A DNA stretch of 32,283 bases from assembly GCF_005239125.1 (NCBI RefSeq), contig NZ_SZYE01000023.1:1-32283 (forward strand), given 5' to 3'. A program made the translations under genes and the position numbers. Numbering within the stretch: position 1 is the stretch's first letter; every line of letters starts with the position of its first letter. Origin of the DNA: Cellulomonas hominis (lineage in GTDB: Bacteria > Actinomycetota > Actinomycetes > Actinomycetales > Cellulomonadaceae). Under the pieces are notes generated by a model that saw only the letters and a list, made by a program, of their open reading frames with translations, was not told where the DNA came from and did no database searches. Shown piece after piece: positions 7,174-28,281 of the stretch.

Positions 7174-8988
7174 ATGCGCGAGTTCAGCGCCGACACGCCC
7201 GCCCCGCACGACCCCGCGCTCAACGTGCCCGGCCTGCTGCTGAAGCGGCTCGCGCGCGGCGCGTCGGGCGTCATCTTCGAGCGGTCGGCGGGCCTCGGCG
7301 GCTCGTGGGCGCCGGTGACGGTCGCCGAGTTCGTCCGCGAGGTCACCGCGCTGGCCAAGGGCCTCGTCGCGCAGGGCCTCGAGCCGGGCGACCGCGTGGC
7401 GATCATGTCCCGCACCCGGTACGAGTGGACGCTCACCGACTTCGCCGTGTGGTTCGCCGGCGGCGTCGGGGTGCCGGTCTACGAGACCTCGTCCGCCGAG
7501 CAGGTCGAGTGGATCCTGTCGAACTCCGGCGCGTCCATCGCGGTCGTGGAGACCGCCGCGCACGCCGCGGTGGTCGCCCAGGTCCGCGCGGCCGTGCCCG
7601 CGGTGCGCGACGTCGTGGTGATCGACGAGGGCGGCCTCGCCGACCTGGTCGCCGCGGGCGCGGACGTCGACGACGCCGAGATCGAGCGCCGCCGGTCCCT
7701 GGCGAGCGCCGCCGACCTCGCGACGATCATCTACACCTCCGGCACCACCGGCCGGCCCAAGGGCGTCGAGCTCACCCACGGCAACTTCGTGGACAACGCC
7801 CGCAACGGCGTCGCCGCGCTCGCCGAGGTCTGCGCCACCCCGGGCTCGCGGACCCTGCTGTTCATGCCGCTCGCGCACGTGTTCGCGCGGTTCATCCAGA
7901 TGGTCGCGATCGAGGCCGGCTCGCCGCTGGGCCACACCCCGGACACCCGCAACCTGCTCGCCGACTTCGCCTCGTTCCGGCCGACGTACATCCTCGCGGT
8001 CCCGCGGGTGTTCGAGAAGGTCTACAACTCCGCCGAGCAGAAGGCCGGGCACGGCGCGAAGCTCAAGCTGTTCCGCTGGGCCGCGAAGGTGTCGATCACC
8101 TACTCCCGCGCCCTCGACACGGCGGCCGGGCCGTCCGCCCAGCTCAAGGCCGCGCACGCGCTCGCGAGCACGCTCGTGCTGCGGAAGCTCAAGGACGCGA
8201 TGGGCGGCGACCTGCGGTACGCGATCTCCGGCGGCGCCCCGCTCGGCGAGCGCCTGGGCCACTACTACCGCGGCCTCGGCCTGGTCGTGCTGGAGGGCTA
8301 CGGCCTGACGGAGACCACCGCGCCGTCGGCGGTGAACCGCCCCGGCCTGATCAAGATCGGCACCGTCGGCCCCGCCTACCCGGGCACGTCGTTGCGGGTG
8401 GACGACGACGGCAACGTGTTCGCCAGGGGCCCGCACGTGTTCCGCGGGTACCACGACAACCCCGACGCGACCGCGGAGGTGCTGGACGCGGACGGCTGGT
8501 TCGCGACCGGCGACATCGGCCGGCTCGACGACGACGGCTACCTGCGCCTGACGGGCCGCGCGAAGGAGCTCATCGTGACCGCCGGCGGCAAGAACGTCGC
8601 GCCCGCCGTGCTCGAGGACCGGTTCCGGGGTCACCCGCTGGTCAGCCAGGTGGTCGTGGTCGGCGACGGCCGCCCGTTCATCGGCGCGCTCGTCACGCTC
8701 GACGCCGACATGCTCCCGGGCTGGCTGTCGATGCACGGGCTGCCCGCGATGGACGTGCGCGCCGCCGGGAAGCACCCCGAGGTGCTGGCGGCCCTGGACC
8801 GCGCCGCCGCGCGCGCGAACGAGGCCGTGTCCCGCGCCGAGTCCATCCGCAAGGTGCGGGTGCTCGACGGCGACTTCACCGAGGCGAACGGCTACCTGAC
8901 CCCGTCGCTCAAGGTGAAGCGCGCGCTCGTGCTCCAGGACTTCGCGGCCGACGTCGAGGAGCTCTACGTCGACACCCGCGAGCACTGA
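7174..8988 (+). CDS. Long-chain fatty-acid--CoA ligase (AMP-forming)
   Basis: Activates long-chain fatty acids to acyl-CoA through an acyl-AMP intermediate, for degradation or lipid building. The 604-residue length suits the FAA1/FadD15-type branch. ATG at 7174 with GGAG 5 nt upstream. Motifs: P-loop IIYTSGTTGRPKG (around 187-197), FMPLAHVFARF, VPRVFEKVY, GYGLTETTAPSAVN, GWFATGDIGRLDDDGY and the hinge/lysine region GRAKELIVTAGGKNVAP. The linker with SITYSRALDTA between the P-loop and the TE motif is typical of the long-chain enzymes. It stands alone between two terminators, so its exact pathway is not indicated by neighbours. Confidence 0.93.
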   Translation: MREFSADTPAPHDPALNVPGLLLKRLARGASGVIFERSAGLGGSWAPVTVAEFVREVTALAKGLVAQGLEPGDRVAIMSRTRYEWTLTDFAVWFAGGVGVPVYETSSAEQVEWILSNSGASIAVVETAAHAAVVAQVRAAVPAVRDVVVIDEGGLADLVAAGADVDDAEIERRRSLASAADLATIIYTSGTTGRPKGVELTHGNFVDNARNGVAALAEVCATPGSRTLLFMPLAHVFARFIQMVAIEAGSPLGHTPDTRNLLADFASFRPTYILAVPRVFEKVYNSAEQKAGHGAKLKLFRWAAKVSITYSRALDTAAGPSAQLKAAHALASTLVLRKLKDAMGGDLRYAISGGAPLGERLGHYYRGLGLVVLEGYGLTETTAPSAVNRPGLIKIGTVGPAYPGTSLRVDDDGNVFARGPHVFRGYHDNPDATAEVLDADGWFATGDIGRLDDDGYLRLTGRAKELIVTAGGKNVAPAVLEDRFRGHPLVSQVVVVGDGRPFIGALVTLDADMLPGWLSMHGLPAMDVRAAGKHPEVLAALDRAAARANEAVSRAESIRKVRVLDGDFTEANGYLTPSLKVKRALVLQDFAADVEELYVDTREH

Positions 8989-19564: not shown

Positions 19565-19613
19565 GGTGTGTCCCGCACGAGCCGCCGAGCCGTCGTCGCC
19601 GAGCCGAGTCGAG

Positions 19614-19687
19614 TCGGGATGGCGGGATTCGAACCCACGACCTTCCGCTCCCAAAGCGGACGCGCTACCAACCTGCGCCACATCCCG
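19614..19687 (-). tRNA. tRNA-Pro (anticodon TGG)
   Basis: On the minus strand: 7-bp acceptor CGGGATG/CATCCCG, D-arm GCGCAGGTTGGTAGCGC, anticodon stem TCCGC/GCGGA with loop TTTGGGA (anticodon TGG), and T-arm GTGGGTTCGAATCCCGC. Discriminator is A; CCA is not encoded. Confidence 0.97.
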
Positions 19688-19807: not shown

Positions 19808-19881
19808 GCGGATGTAGCTCAATGGTAGAGCCCCAGTCTTCCAAACTGGCTACGCGGGTTCGATTCCCGTCATCCGCTCCA
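19808..19881 (+). tRNA. tRNA-Gly (anticodon TCC)
   Basis: Acceptor GCGGATG/CATCCGC, D-arm AGCTCAATGGTAGAGC, anticodon stem CCAGT/ACTGG with loop CTTCCAA (anticodon TCC), T-arm GCGGGTTCGATTCCCGT. The discriminator T is followed by an encoded CCA (19879-19881), unlike the adjacent tRNA-Pro. The 3' end overlaps the end of the antisense protein gene by 12 bp. Confidence 0.97.
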
Positions 19882-26111: not shown

Positions 26112-26317
26112 GGCGGCGATCCTGCCACCCGCGCCCGCCCCCGGGGAGGTCCCCGCGCGGCCCCGGCGCCGGGACCCGCACCGGCCGCCCGGAGCGTCGC
26201 CGCTGCTCCGGGTGGCGGCGACCGGGGCCGTGCCGCACGGTGGAGGCGTGGAAGCCGGCCGTCGACCGGGCCCGCGCCGGGGCCCGGGGACCACCCGATC
26301 GGGGCGCCCGGGCATCT
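26112..26317. other. Non-coding stretch upstream of the cysK promoter
   Basis: No gene is convincing here; open frames are Pro/Arg-rich and lack homology marks. Two mutually exclusive 8-bp hairpins are present: CCCGGAGC (26188-26195) with GCTCCGGG (26205-26212), or GTCGCCGC (26196-26203) with GCGGCGAC (26215-26222). They lie upstream of the predicted cysK promoter, so their relevance is uncertain. Confidence 0.4.
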
Positions 26318-26347
26318 TTGTGGGGCCGCGTGCGTTGGCGCTACTGT
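26318..26347 (+). promoter_or_regulatory. Promoter of the cysK-cysE leader transcript
   Basis: -10 TACTGT (26342-26347) with a weak TTGTGG -35 18 bp upstream. Transcription would begin near 26354, giving a 5' leader of about 270 nt before cysK. Confidence 0.5.
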
Positions 26348-26389
26348 CGGCGCTGTCGGGTGCCGACCACCAGGGAGAGGGGACCGGGC

Positions 26390-26485
26390 ATGCGCCTCGC
26401 GCCGAGCACCGCGTCCACCTCGCCGCGCCCCGCCCCCGCGCGCACGCGCACCGCGTCCGCCGCGCCCCGCTGTCGCTGTCTGTAG
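26390..26485 (+). CDS. Candidate cysteine leader peptide (31 aa, ends Cys-Arg-Cys-Leu)
   Basis: ATG at 26390 is preceded by AGGGGA with 6-nt spacing, a good ribosome site. The product is 31 residues of Ser/Thr/Pro/Ala/Arg-rich sequence with its only two cysteines at positions 28 and 30 (PRCRCL, then TAG). Cysteine is rare, so two Cys codons right before the stop, upstream of the cysteine synthase gene, is the pattern of a ribosome-sensing leader peptide. Cysteine-responsive upstream ORFs are known in mycobacteria. The peptide itself is expected to have no other function. Chance ORFs of this size are common in GC-rich DNA, hence moderate confidence. Confidence 0.6.
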   Translation: MRLAPSTASTSPRPAPARTRTASAAPRCRCL

Positions 26486-26549
26486 AGCGCTGGCCGCACC
26501 GCCGCACGCCGGCGGCAGCCCGACCCGGGCCCGGCCCGGGCCAGCGCTC
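26485..26549 (+). promoter_or_regulatory. Candidate attenuator hairpin in the cysK leader
   Basis: GAGCGCTGGCC (26485-26495) pairs perfectly with 26539-26549. The left arm starts at the last base of the leader-peptide stop codon, so a ribosome halted at either Cys codon would cover it and stop the hairpin forming. Inside are alternative stems GCCGC/GCGGC and CCCGGG/CCCGGG. Whether the effect is on transcription or on cysK translation cannot be told; CCGTC at 26586-26590 could pair with the GACGG of the cysK ribosome site. Confidence 0.55.
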
Positions 26550-26626
26550 GCCCTCGACCCACGGCCGCGCGCGCCGGCGCCGCGACCGTCGCACCCCCCG
26601 ACACCTCGACCCCAGGACGGACTGAC

Positions 26627-27562
26627 ATGGCACGCATCTACGACGACGCGACGCAGCTCATCGGCAACACCCCGCTGGTGCGGATCAACAAGCTGACGGA
26701 GGGCGTCGGCGCGACGATCGTCGGCAAGCTCGAGTTCTACAACCCCGCCAGCTCCGTGAAGGACCGGATCGGCGTCGCGATCGTCGACGCCGCGGAGCGC
26801 TCCGGGGAGCTGCAGCCGGGCGGCACCATCGTCGAGGCCACCTCCGGCAACACCGGCATCGCGCTCGCGTTCGTCGGCGCGGCCCGCGGCTACGACGTCG
26901 TGCTGACCATGCCCGAGTCCATGTCGAAGGAGCGCCGCGCGCTGCTGCGCGCCTACGGCGCCGAGCTCATCCTCACCCCCGCCTCCGAGGGCATGAAGGG
27001 CGCCGTCAACCGCGCGAACGAGATCGTCGCGGAGCGCCCGGGCGCCGTCCTGGCCCGCCAGTTCGCGAACGAGGCCAACCCGGAGATCCACCGCCGCACC
27101 ACCGCCGAGGAGATCTGGGCCGACACCGACGGCGAGGTCGACATCCTGGTCGCCGGCATCGGCACCGGCGGCACCATCACCGGTGTCGGCCAGGTGCTCA
27201 AGGAGCGCAAGCCGGGCGTGCAGGTCGTCGGCGTCGAGCCGGCCGAGTCGCCGATCCTCAACGGCGGGGCGCCCGGCCCGCACAAGATCCAGGGCATCGG
27301 GGCGAACTTCGTCCCGGAGATCCTCGACACCACCGTCTACGACGAGATCATCGACGTGGACGCGGACACCGCCGTCACCGTCGCGCGCCGGGCCGCGAAG
27401 GAGGAGGGCCTGCTCGTCGGCATCTCCTCCGGCGCCGCGCTGCACGCCGCGATCGAGCTCGGCAAGCGGCCCGAGAACGCCGGGAAGCTGATCGTCGTGA
27501 TCATCCCGTCGTTCGGCGAGCGGTACCTCTCGTCCATCCTGTACGCCGACCTCCTGGACTGA
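26627..27562 (+). CDS. cysK: Cysteine synthase A (O-acetylserine sulfhydrylase)
   Basis: Pyridoxal-phosphate enzyme that makes cysteine from O-acetylserine and sulfide. 311 residues, usual length. [13 protein letters not shown] at 11-23, PLP lysine Lys45 in [11 protein letters not shown], phosphate/substrate loop [10 protein letters not shown], the PLP-phosphate loop [13 protein letters not shown], and the C-terminal [13 protein letters not shown]. The C-terminal partner peptide of CysE (ending in Ile) can dock in its active site to form the cysteine synthase complex. ATG preceded by AGGACGG. It is 5 bp upstream of cysE in a clear two-gene operon. Confidence 0.97.
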
Positions 27563-27567
27563 TCGCC

Positions 27568-28281
27568 ATGACCTCGACCACGCGACCGCCGCTCACGGGC
27601 GGCACCTCCCGGCCCGGTGGCCGCGGGGTGCCGACCCCGGCGCGCGCGTCCTCCGCCGAGCGCACGGCGACCGGGGCCACCGGCGCCGGCGAGCACTGGC
27701 GCAGCCTGCGCCGGTTCGCCCGCACGCTGCGCGAGGACCTGGAGGCGGCGCAGCGCCGGGACCCGGCCGCGCGGTCGCGGGTCGAGGTCGCCCTGGCGTA
27801 CCCCGGCCTGCACGCGGTGTGGGTGCACCGGGTGGCGCACCGGATGTGGCGGGAGCCGGCGCTGCGGCTGCCGGCCCGGCTGCTGTCCCAGGCGTCCCGG
27901 GCCGTCACCGGGGTGGAGATCCACCCGGGGGCGACCATCGGGCGCCGGCTGTTCATCGACCACGGCATGGGCGTCGTCGTCGGGGAGACGGCCGTGGTCG
28001 GCGACGACGTCGTGCTGTTCCACGGAGCCACGCTCGGCGGCAAGACGATGCGGCGCGGCAAGCGGCACCCGACGGTCGGCAACGACGTCGTGGTCGGCGC
28101 GGGCGCCAAGGTGCTCGGGCCGGTGTGGATCGGCGACGGCGCGCAGATCGGCGCGAACGCGGTGGTCCTCAAGGACGTGCCCGCGGGCGCGGTGGCGGTC
28201 GGCGTCCCGGCGACCATCCGCCAGAAGCCGCGCTCCGCTCCCCCGGAGCCGGAGATCGACGACCCCGCGATCTACATCTGA
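27568..28281 (+). CDS. cysE: Serine O-acetyltransferase
   Basis: Acetylates L-serine with acetyl-CoA to O-acetylserine, feeding CysK. 237 residues; the first ~42 are a Thr/Pro/Gly-rich extension without homology marks, so a later start is possible, but no better ribosome site was found. The core begins at [18 protein letters not shown], then [12 protein letters not shown], and the left-handed beta-helix with [20 protein letters not shown] and [20 protein letters not shown]. The C-terminus ends EIDDPAIYI; the final Ile is what lets CysE insert its tail into CysK. Translation is probably coupled to cysK. Confidence 0.96.

Follow-up and report, generated by a model that had tools for sequence, protein, structure and literature searches.

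Does the leader in front of cysK and cysE in Cellulomonas hominis sense cysteine and, if it does, by what device would it pass the signal on? An earlier note had read this locus as a cysteine-sensing leader peptide coupled to an attenuator. Here we examine that reading in the window, by which we mean the whole stretch of 32,283 nucleotides that was analysed (contig NZ_SZYE01000023.1, assembly G000, 407 contigs), and in genomes of the same genus, family, order and class. Unless stated otherwise, positions refer to the plus strand of the window.

Leader, Cys codons and stem in the window

The gene proposed to be controlled, cysK (26627-27562), encodes cysteine synthase A (TIGR01139, 450 bits against a cut-off of 351), in agreement with the earlier statement that it makes cysteine, and its closest named relative is that of Cellulomonas triticagri. 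It is followed after 5 nt by cysE (27568-28281), encoding serine O-acetyltransferase (TIGR01172, 233 bits against a cut-off of 211), and the two genes presumably form one operon.

Translation of 26390-26485 reproduced the ORF that had been described: 31 codons, with the peptide MRLAPSTASTSPRPAPARTRTASAAPRCRCL, ending Cys-Arg-Cys-Leu-stop and holding Cys only at the fourth-last and second-last codons (TGT at 26471-26473 and TGT at 26477-26479, so that the putative regulatory codons TGT-CGC-TGT occupy 26471-26479), with the stop TAG at 26483-26485. The ribosome site is a purine-rich, Shine-Dalgarno-like GAGGGGA (26377-26383) that ends 6 nt before the ATG. The 11-bp hairpin was likewise found to be exact: GAGCGCTGGCC (26485-26495) pairs perfectly with GGCCAGCGCTC (26539-26549), closing 43 nt of variable interior with smaller hairpins (26496-26538), and the first base of the stem is the last base, G, of the leader UAG. 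From the 3′ end of the stem, a C-rich, G-poor spacer of 77 nt (26550-26626), containing the cysK Shine-Dalgarno sequence AGGACGGA (26614-26621), leads to the cysK start.

A −35/−10-like pair, TTGTGG (26318-26323) and TACTGT (26342-26347) separated by 18 nt, predicts a transcript start near 26354, 36 nt upstream of the ORF, which gives the leader of about 270 nt that had been proposed. A CTTTG(T/C)...CTANNGTC block lies at the promoter position in 11 of the 13 relatives inspected (the pattern missed L012 and L028); a scan with consensus promoters found none at this locus. The leader peptide belongs to no known protein family in NCBIfam or Pfam, and the window's copy of the leader matches no family in Rfam 15, where the region 26250-26760 returned one match at chance level and only two tRNAs in the window reached gathering scores. 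The window also carries divergent genes for tRNA-Pro (TGG; 19613-19687, minus strand) and tRNA-Gly (TCC; 19808-19881, plus strand), 120 nt apart.

Perfect stems of at least 11 bp start at 29 of 21436 positions sampled on both strands of the window, which lends some support to a chance meeting of an ORF and a hairpin in GC-rich sequence; this explanation is refuted by the conservation, frame bias and covariation described below, and we consider its probability negligible. When stop codons were taken as starting points, only 1 of 273 on the plus strand (any frame; partner 20-125 nt downstream) began a perfect stem of at least 9 bp, and it was the leader's own. The window's two strands hold 154 short ORFs of 15-60 codons with distinct stops, and in 2 of these, the leader ORF and one ending at 7240, two of the last four codons are Cys. 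Because window ORFs chosen by codon composition favour TGC over TGT (41 versus 5) and, among the 19 that end inside the window, UGA over TAG (18 versus 1), the second-last UGU and the UAG stop of the leader look like specific choices.

Conservation and covariation before cysK

Loci were gathered by cysK protein similarity alone, and the leader search asked only for Cys near the ORF end. The resulting set of 49 loci from Cellulomonas and near genera comprises L001-L051, L056 and L083 minus three duplicates (L031, L040 and L047) and one locus at a contig end (L019, with 183 nt upstream); it was bounded by genus after an earlier result had been seen. The second-last codon of the leader was Cys in 48 of the 49, the exception being L036 from Pseudactinotalea. 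Within these 48 leaders, for which a second-last Cys was part of the search, this codon was UGU in 47 (UGC in L034), the stop was UAG in 46 (UGA in L038 and L039), and 45 had a stem, 6 bp or longer, whose first base is the final base of the stop. The short Cys-ending ORF that the earlier note had expected an alignment of relatives to reveal is therefore kept before cysK, and the near-invariance of the second-last UGU and of UAG, together with the missing U-tract considered below, goes beyond what that note had described.

Larger collections gave the same picture, within the limits of how they were assembled. The second-last codon was TGT in all of 84 elements, for which a TGT motif was part of the selection, and the Cys codons ahead of it, within the last six codons, were mixed (89 UGC, 62 UGU). 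An in-frame start with a Shine-Dalgarno sequence was present in 92 of 114 elements, compared with 4 and 1 elements for the two remaining frames; here the second-last Cys or the motif TGT-C-N-N-TAG was part of the search, and L102, counted among the 114, matched by chance. Many relatives carry contiguous runs of Cys in the leader, where the window has Cys-Arg-Cys.

The compensatory changes that had been anticipated in the 26485-26549 stem were also found. They affect 5 of the 11 pairs among 45 aligned loci (43 distinct), and changes on both sides reach 7 of the 11 among 73 distinct sequences from more families. In this alignment of 73, which was fitted to the structure and so favours covariation, 89.1% of the stem cells were paired and 48 cells were compensatory, against a shuffled mean of 17.3 and with none of 500 shuffles reaching that number; sliding the stem alignment by 1-3 columns left 28-43% of the cells paired. 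Divergent stems start at the same place on the stop codon, as in GAGCGCTGG/CCAGCGCTC, GAGCATTG/CAATGCTC, GAGCGTC/GACGCTC and GAGCGCGGG/CCCGCGCTC, and further stems came from the covariance model matches (GAGCGTTGAC/GTCAATGCTC, GGGCGTC/GACGCCC). Stem stability had a mean z of −3.6 (43 loci), and structure prediction recovered the stem in 42 of 44 elements folded alone, but in only 33 of 44 when the folded stretch ran to cysK+30. The strong conservation of both arms within Cellulomonas would suit an inverted repeat acting as the DNA operator of a sulfur regulator, with the ORF incidental. We regard this as very unlikely, because the arms vary in sequence without losing their pairing and accept G-U pairs, the hairpin can be as short as 27 nt or as long as 91 nt, and the stem is locked by its first base to the stop of a Cys-ending ORF.

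The last Cys codon stands at a constant spacing from the stem (UGU, one codon, UAG). Of the three stop codons only UAG has a final G, and the need for this G in the first G-C pair explains why UAG is nearly invariant. No stop-anchored 6-bp stem was present where the leader ends in UGA, with Cys second-last in L038, L039, L237, L241 and L242 and last in L251 and L252, and UAG occurred with at most 4 bp in L034/L239 and L238 (4 bp). The leader is thus retained in some relatives that have no such stem, whether they use UGA or even UAG, and at those loci the stem is dispensable. The first five of these UGA loci (L038 and L039 being named Cellulosimicrobium) have Cys-rich leaders ending Gly-Cys-Arg and constitute a natural leader without the stem.

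The exact core pattern was found in 52 of 60 genomes of the genus, in one copy each, and the reversed pattern in none; G007, a Cellulomonas without this cysK, is also without the element. Covariance models matched 153 of 200 genomes and 22 of 25 genera in the family, nearly all with one match, and 55 of 297 genomes and 20 of 94 genera in the order. Forty matches were read, selected because they came from other families, scored weakly or were low in GC. In 37 the element lay immediately before cysK and in the same orientation (5 of these repeat loci already in the set); L156, L157 and L200 were rejected. Outside the window's family the element precedes cysK in order groups f3, f12 and f13 (L149-L155, L163, L164), and Demequina (L044, L046, L048, L049) also carries it there. 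Forty-seven family genomes had no model match; in 20 of these and four more members of the genus, cysK was found in 18 of 24. Among 16 of these cysK loci that were read (L239, L245 and L247 repeating L034, L162 and L045), Cys was second-last in 12, short ORFs of L248, L251 and L252 had Cys last followed by UGA, and L250 had no leader.

Across the class, the model had matches in 4 of 296 genomes. The real matches were the window's own and G082 (L214, cysK confirmed, 83% identity), both from the window's family; L215 and L216 were not real, and another frame of L215 encodes what we take, by its motif, to be a SoxR-type protein. A search by cysK across the class (30 loci, out of 92 genomes with a match) yielded no element besides these two. 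A short ORF with a second-last Cys was seen in 5 of 57 other cysK loci (Arthrobacter, Microbacteriaceae, Gordonia and others), two of which, from Gordonia (L082 and L089), carry UGU-CNN-UAG and a 7-bp stem that starts on the G of UAG. The model had missed both. Gordonia belongs to a different order, and its stems (GAGCGCC/GGCGCTC and GACCCGT/ACGGGTC) keep the same register, with pairing in L082 extending through the whole stop codon (GTAGACCCGT/ACGGGTCTAC); these leaders end ...LTDHC(Q/R), with a single Cys and a Shine-Dalgarno sequence. A third Gordonia locus, L086, lacks the element. Five loci from small genomes (L110, L273, L280, L281 and L286; group f44 and one MAG) have before cysK a distinct conserved short ORF, (W)(Y/F)FTRRRVIDFGRA, with a Cys-rich end and a UAA stop, which looks like another cysteine-leader family.

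Within the window's genome, the model found one clear copy (E 4.6e-12). Eight further matches were weak (E 0.03 or worse), and among them no further target was established: the strongest, L217, falls in a frame whose translation we take to be that of a transporter permease, and L218 was scanned for Cys ORFs. The regions of a cystathionine beta-synthase-like gene (L234, L235) and of PAPS reductase in relatives held no convincing Cys-ending leader. PF01507 (PAPS reductase) had no match in G000, full matches in four of five relatives and partial matches in the fifth; G000 may lack sulfate assimilation, or its assembly may be incomplete.

Proposed sensing and output

The leader, its codons, the stem, the fixed register and the conservation of all these before cysK are seen directly. 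From them we infer that the leader is translated, that cysteine is the signal and which way control runs, and we consider it highly probable, on this comparative evidence, that the element is a cysteine-responsive, ribosome-mediated attenuator of cysK-cysE.

In the mechanism that we propose, transcription would begin near 26354 and a ribosome would translate the 31-codon leader. With plentiful Cys-tRNA, the ribosome would reach UAG and leave, the stem would close and cysK expression would be lowered, most likely through premature, probably Rho-dependent, termination in the C-rich spacer. With scarce Cys-tRNA, it would wait with the last UGU (26477-26479) in its A site; given the usual footprint of a ribosome, it would then reach to about 26489-26491 and cover about 5-7 of the 11 stem pairs, the covered stem could not close, and cysK-cysE would be made, the ribosome itself being the antiterminator. 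The masking of the stem by a stalled ribosome, already suggested in the earlier note, fits the fixed register of the last Cys codon and the stem. A ribosome waiting at the first Cys would reach only the stem base, so the last UGU would be the natural sensor, and it is the only Cys in the Gordonia leaders. Because the stem would equally be masked by a ribosome resting at UAG, the off state would depend on quick release. A further point against the proposed attenuator is that the window's leader holds no more than two Cys codons. A search for a competing antiterminator stem found no conserved alternative, in RNA so GC-rich that it pairs everywhere, and no second, competing stem is needed.

With regard to output, we lean towards transcription termination over translation-level control and other outputs, and weakly favour the Rho type. 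The stem of the window is followed by GCCCTCGACC, which contains no U-tract, and in most relatives this position is taken by GCCCC or other C-rich sequence; among the elements read, a clear U-tract follows the stem only in L160. A plain intrinsic terminator is therefore unlikely in the window and in nearly all relatives read. A classical intrinsic-terminator attenuator, in which the stem would terminate with little or no U-tract and only the output would differ, might be argued from TTTTTCTT after the L160 stem and from the 4 T in 8 of L154 and L195 (also below 60% GC), but C-rich sequence follows the stem even at 56-61% GC (L143, L166, L194) and the interior is long for a terminator; we judge this variant improbable. 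L160 itself (G146:C3:304673-304735, minus strand) is low in GC, and with its U-tract the element there resembles an intrinsic terminator of the usual kind; in L195, from the same genus, the stem is followed by GTTTCCCT instead.

The evidence for Rho is one of composition. The spacers of 42 loci are 50% C and 28% G, against 32% C and 27% G in 57 comparison cysK leaders, which come mostly from less GC-rich taxa, and high-GC 5′ leaders may be C-rich generally; in the window, the 78 nt from 26540 to 26617 lie at the 99th percentile for C minus G. This C-richness fits Rho loading. Folding does not point to an open Rho site: with a mean z of −0.83, the spacers are slightly more structured than their shuffled versions.

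Translation attenuation, in which the sensing would be the same and the stalled ribosome would free the cysK ribosome-binding site, gains some credit from the closest experimentally studied Cys leaders, which are described as translational in passages of PMC13236596 and PMC9031893. However, the cysK start site lies outside the stem, the gap between stem and cysK varies from 43 to 228 nt across loci, and direct hiding of the start site gained no support, as 25 loci showed no conserved pairing of the start region with the core or the 3′ arm, a weak test in GC-rich RNA. The variable gap and the lack of such pairing argue against simple start-site hiding, and we consider translational output unlikely, though a serious candidate. 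Returning to termination, a fuller version of our proposal would let the stop codon itself form the first pair of the regulatory stem, with the ribosome as sole antiterminator and with U-tract-less termination (by Rho or an actinobacterial U-less mode). The near-invariant, wobble-read UGU would be a tuned sensor, preferred to the common UGC because it makes the ribosome wait longer at exactly the stem-blocking register. We offer this combination tentatively, as one that may well fail in some part.

Relation to known leaders and significance

The element resembles amino-acid leaders in the broad sense, with codons for the product near the ORF end and a conserved structure placed for a stalled ribosome, and the window lacks the intrinsic terminator with a U-tract that marks the trp type. 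The closest studied systems are the polycysteine short-ORF attenuators of Mycobacterium smegmatis (Canestrari et al. 2020, as cited in passages of PMC13236596, PMC9031893 and PMC9094748), cysteine-responsive ORFs for which those passages name translation attenuation as the mode. Both they and the present leader place a Cys-codon short ORF before cysteine genes, with ribosome slowing proposed at low cysteine. As described in those passages, however, the M. smegmatis ORFs are leaderless, act on translation of the next gene and have contiguous Cys codons, whereas the Cellulomonas ORF is led by a Shine-Dalgarno sequence and combines Cys-Arg-Cys with a covarying stem anchored on the stop codon. Because the transcript of the window is not predicted to be leaderless (the predicted start is 36 nt upstream and a Shine-Dalgarno sequence is present) and its leader ORF has no contiguous Cys codons, we do not place the element in the mycobacterial group; as read here, the candidate is a stop-codon-anchored, structured variety of leader-peptide attenuation.

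Cys leader peptides were predicted before cys operons of Mycobacterium and P. acnes and before B. longum cbs (Seliverstov 2005, PMC1262725). According to passages of that paper, they share with ours the Cys codons near the stop, the actinobacterial hosts, the cysteine genes and a suggestion of Rho-dependent termination; these passages report no conserved terminator-like hairpin in Mycobacterium, whereas the Cellulomonas-type stem is conserved in several families. The predicted uORFC-8-2 motif before cysS in Rhodobacterales (passages of PMC8632094) likewise combines a conserved Cys-codon uORF with RNA stems and proposed ribosome-mediated attenuation, but it belongs to another phylum and gene, has its Cys codons inside the first stem with UGC dominant, and ends in a terminator with a U run. 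The ilvB-II uORF attenuator of Corynebacterium (excerpts of PMC10272879) is also an actinobacterial leader-peptide attenuator with covarying stems, but it concerns branched-chain amino acids and has a U-tract terminator and a distinct antiterminator. The part of the S. lividans reannotation drawn on here (PMC8079986) names eight leaders, none for cysK. One of them, the metL leader before metNIQ (Table 4), is annotated as methionine-sensing and ends RCMCRRMCAF, with three Cys codons near the end, and might sense cysteine. In a literature search covering titles, abstract starts and some passages, we recognised no paper describing a stop-anchored element before cysK.

If the proposed reading is right, the element would be a structured cis-regulatory RNA for cysteine supply, with model matches in 22 of 25 genera sampled within the family and with confirmed members from further families of the order and from Gordonia. 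Its rigid arrangement of UGU, one codon, UAG and stem geometry would offer a precise, testable case of an RNA that reads the position of a ribosome, and would bear on how attenuation works without U-tract terminators in GC-rich bacteria, a question left open for Cys leaders in the cited passages of PMC1262725.
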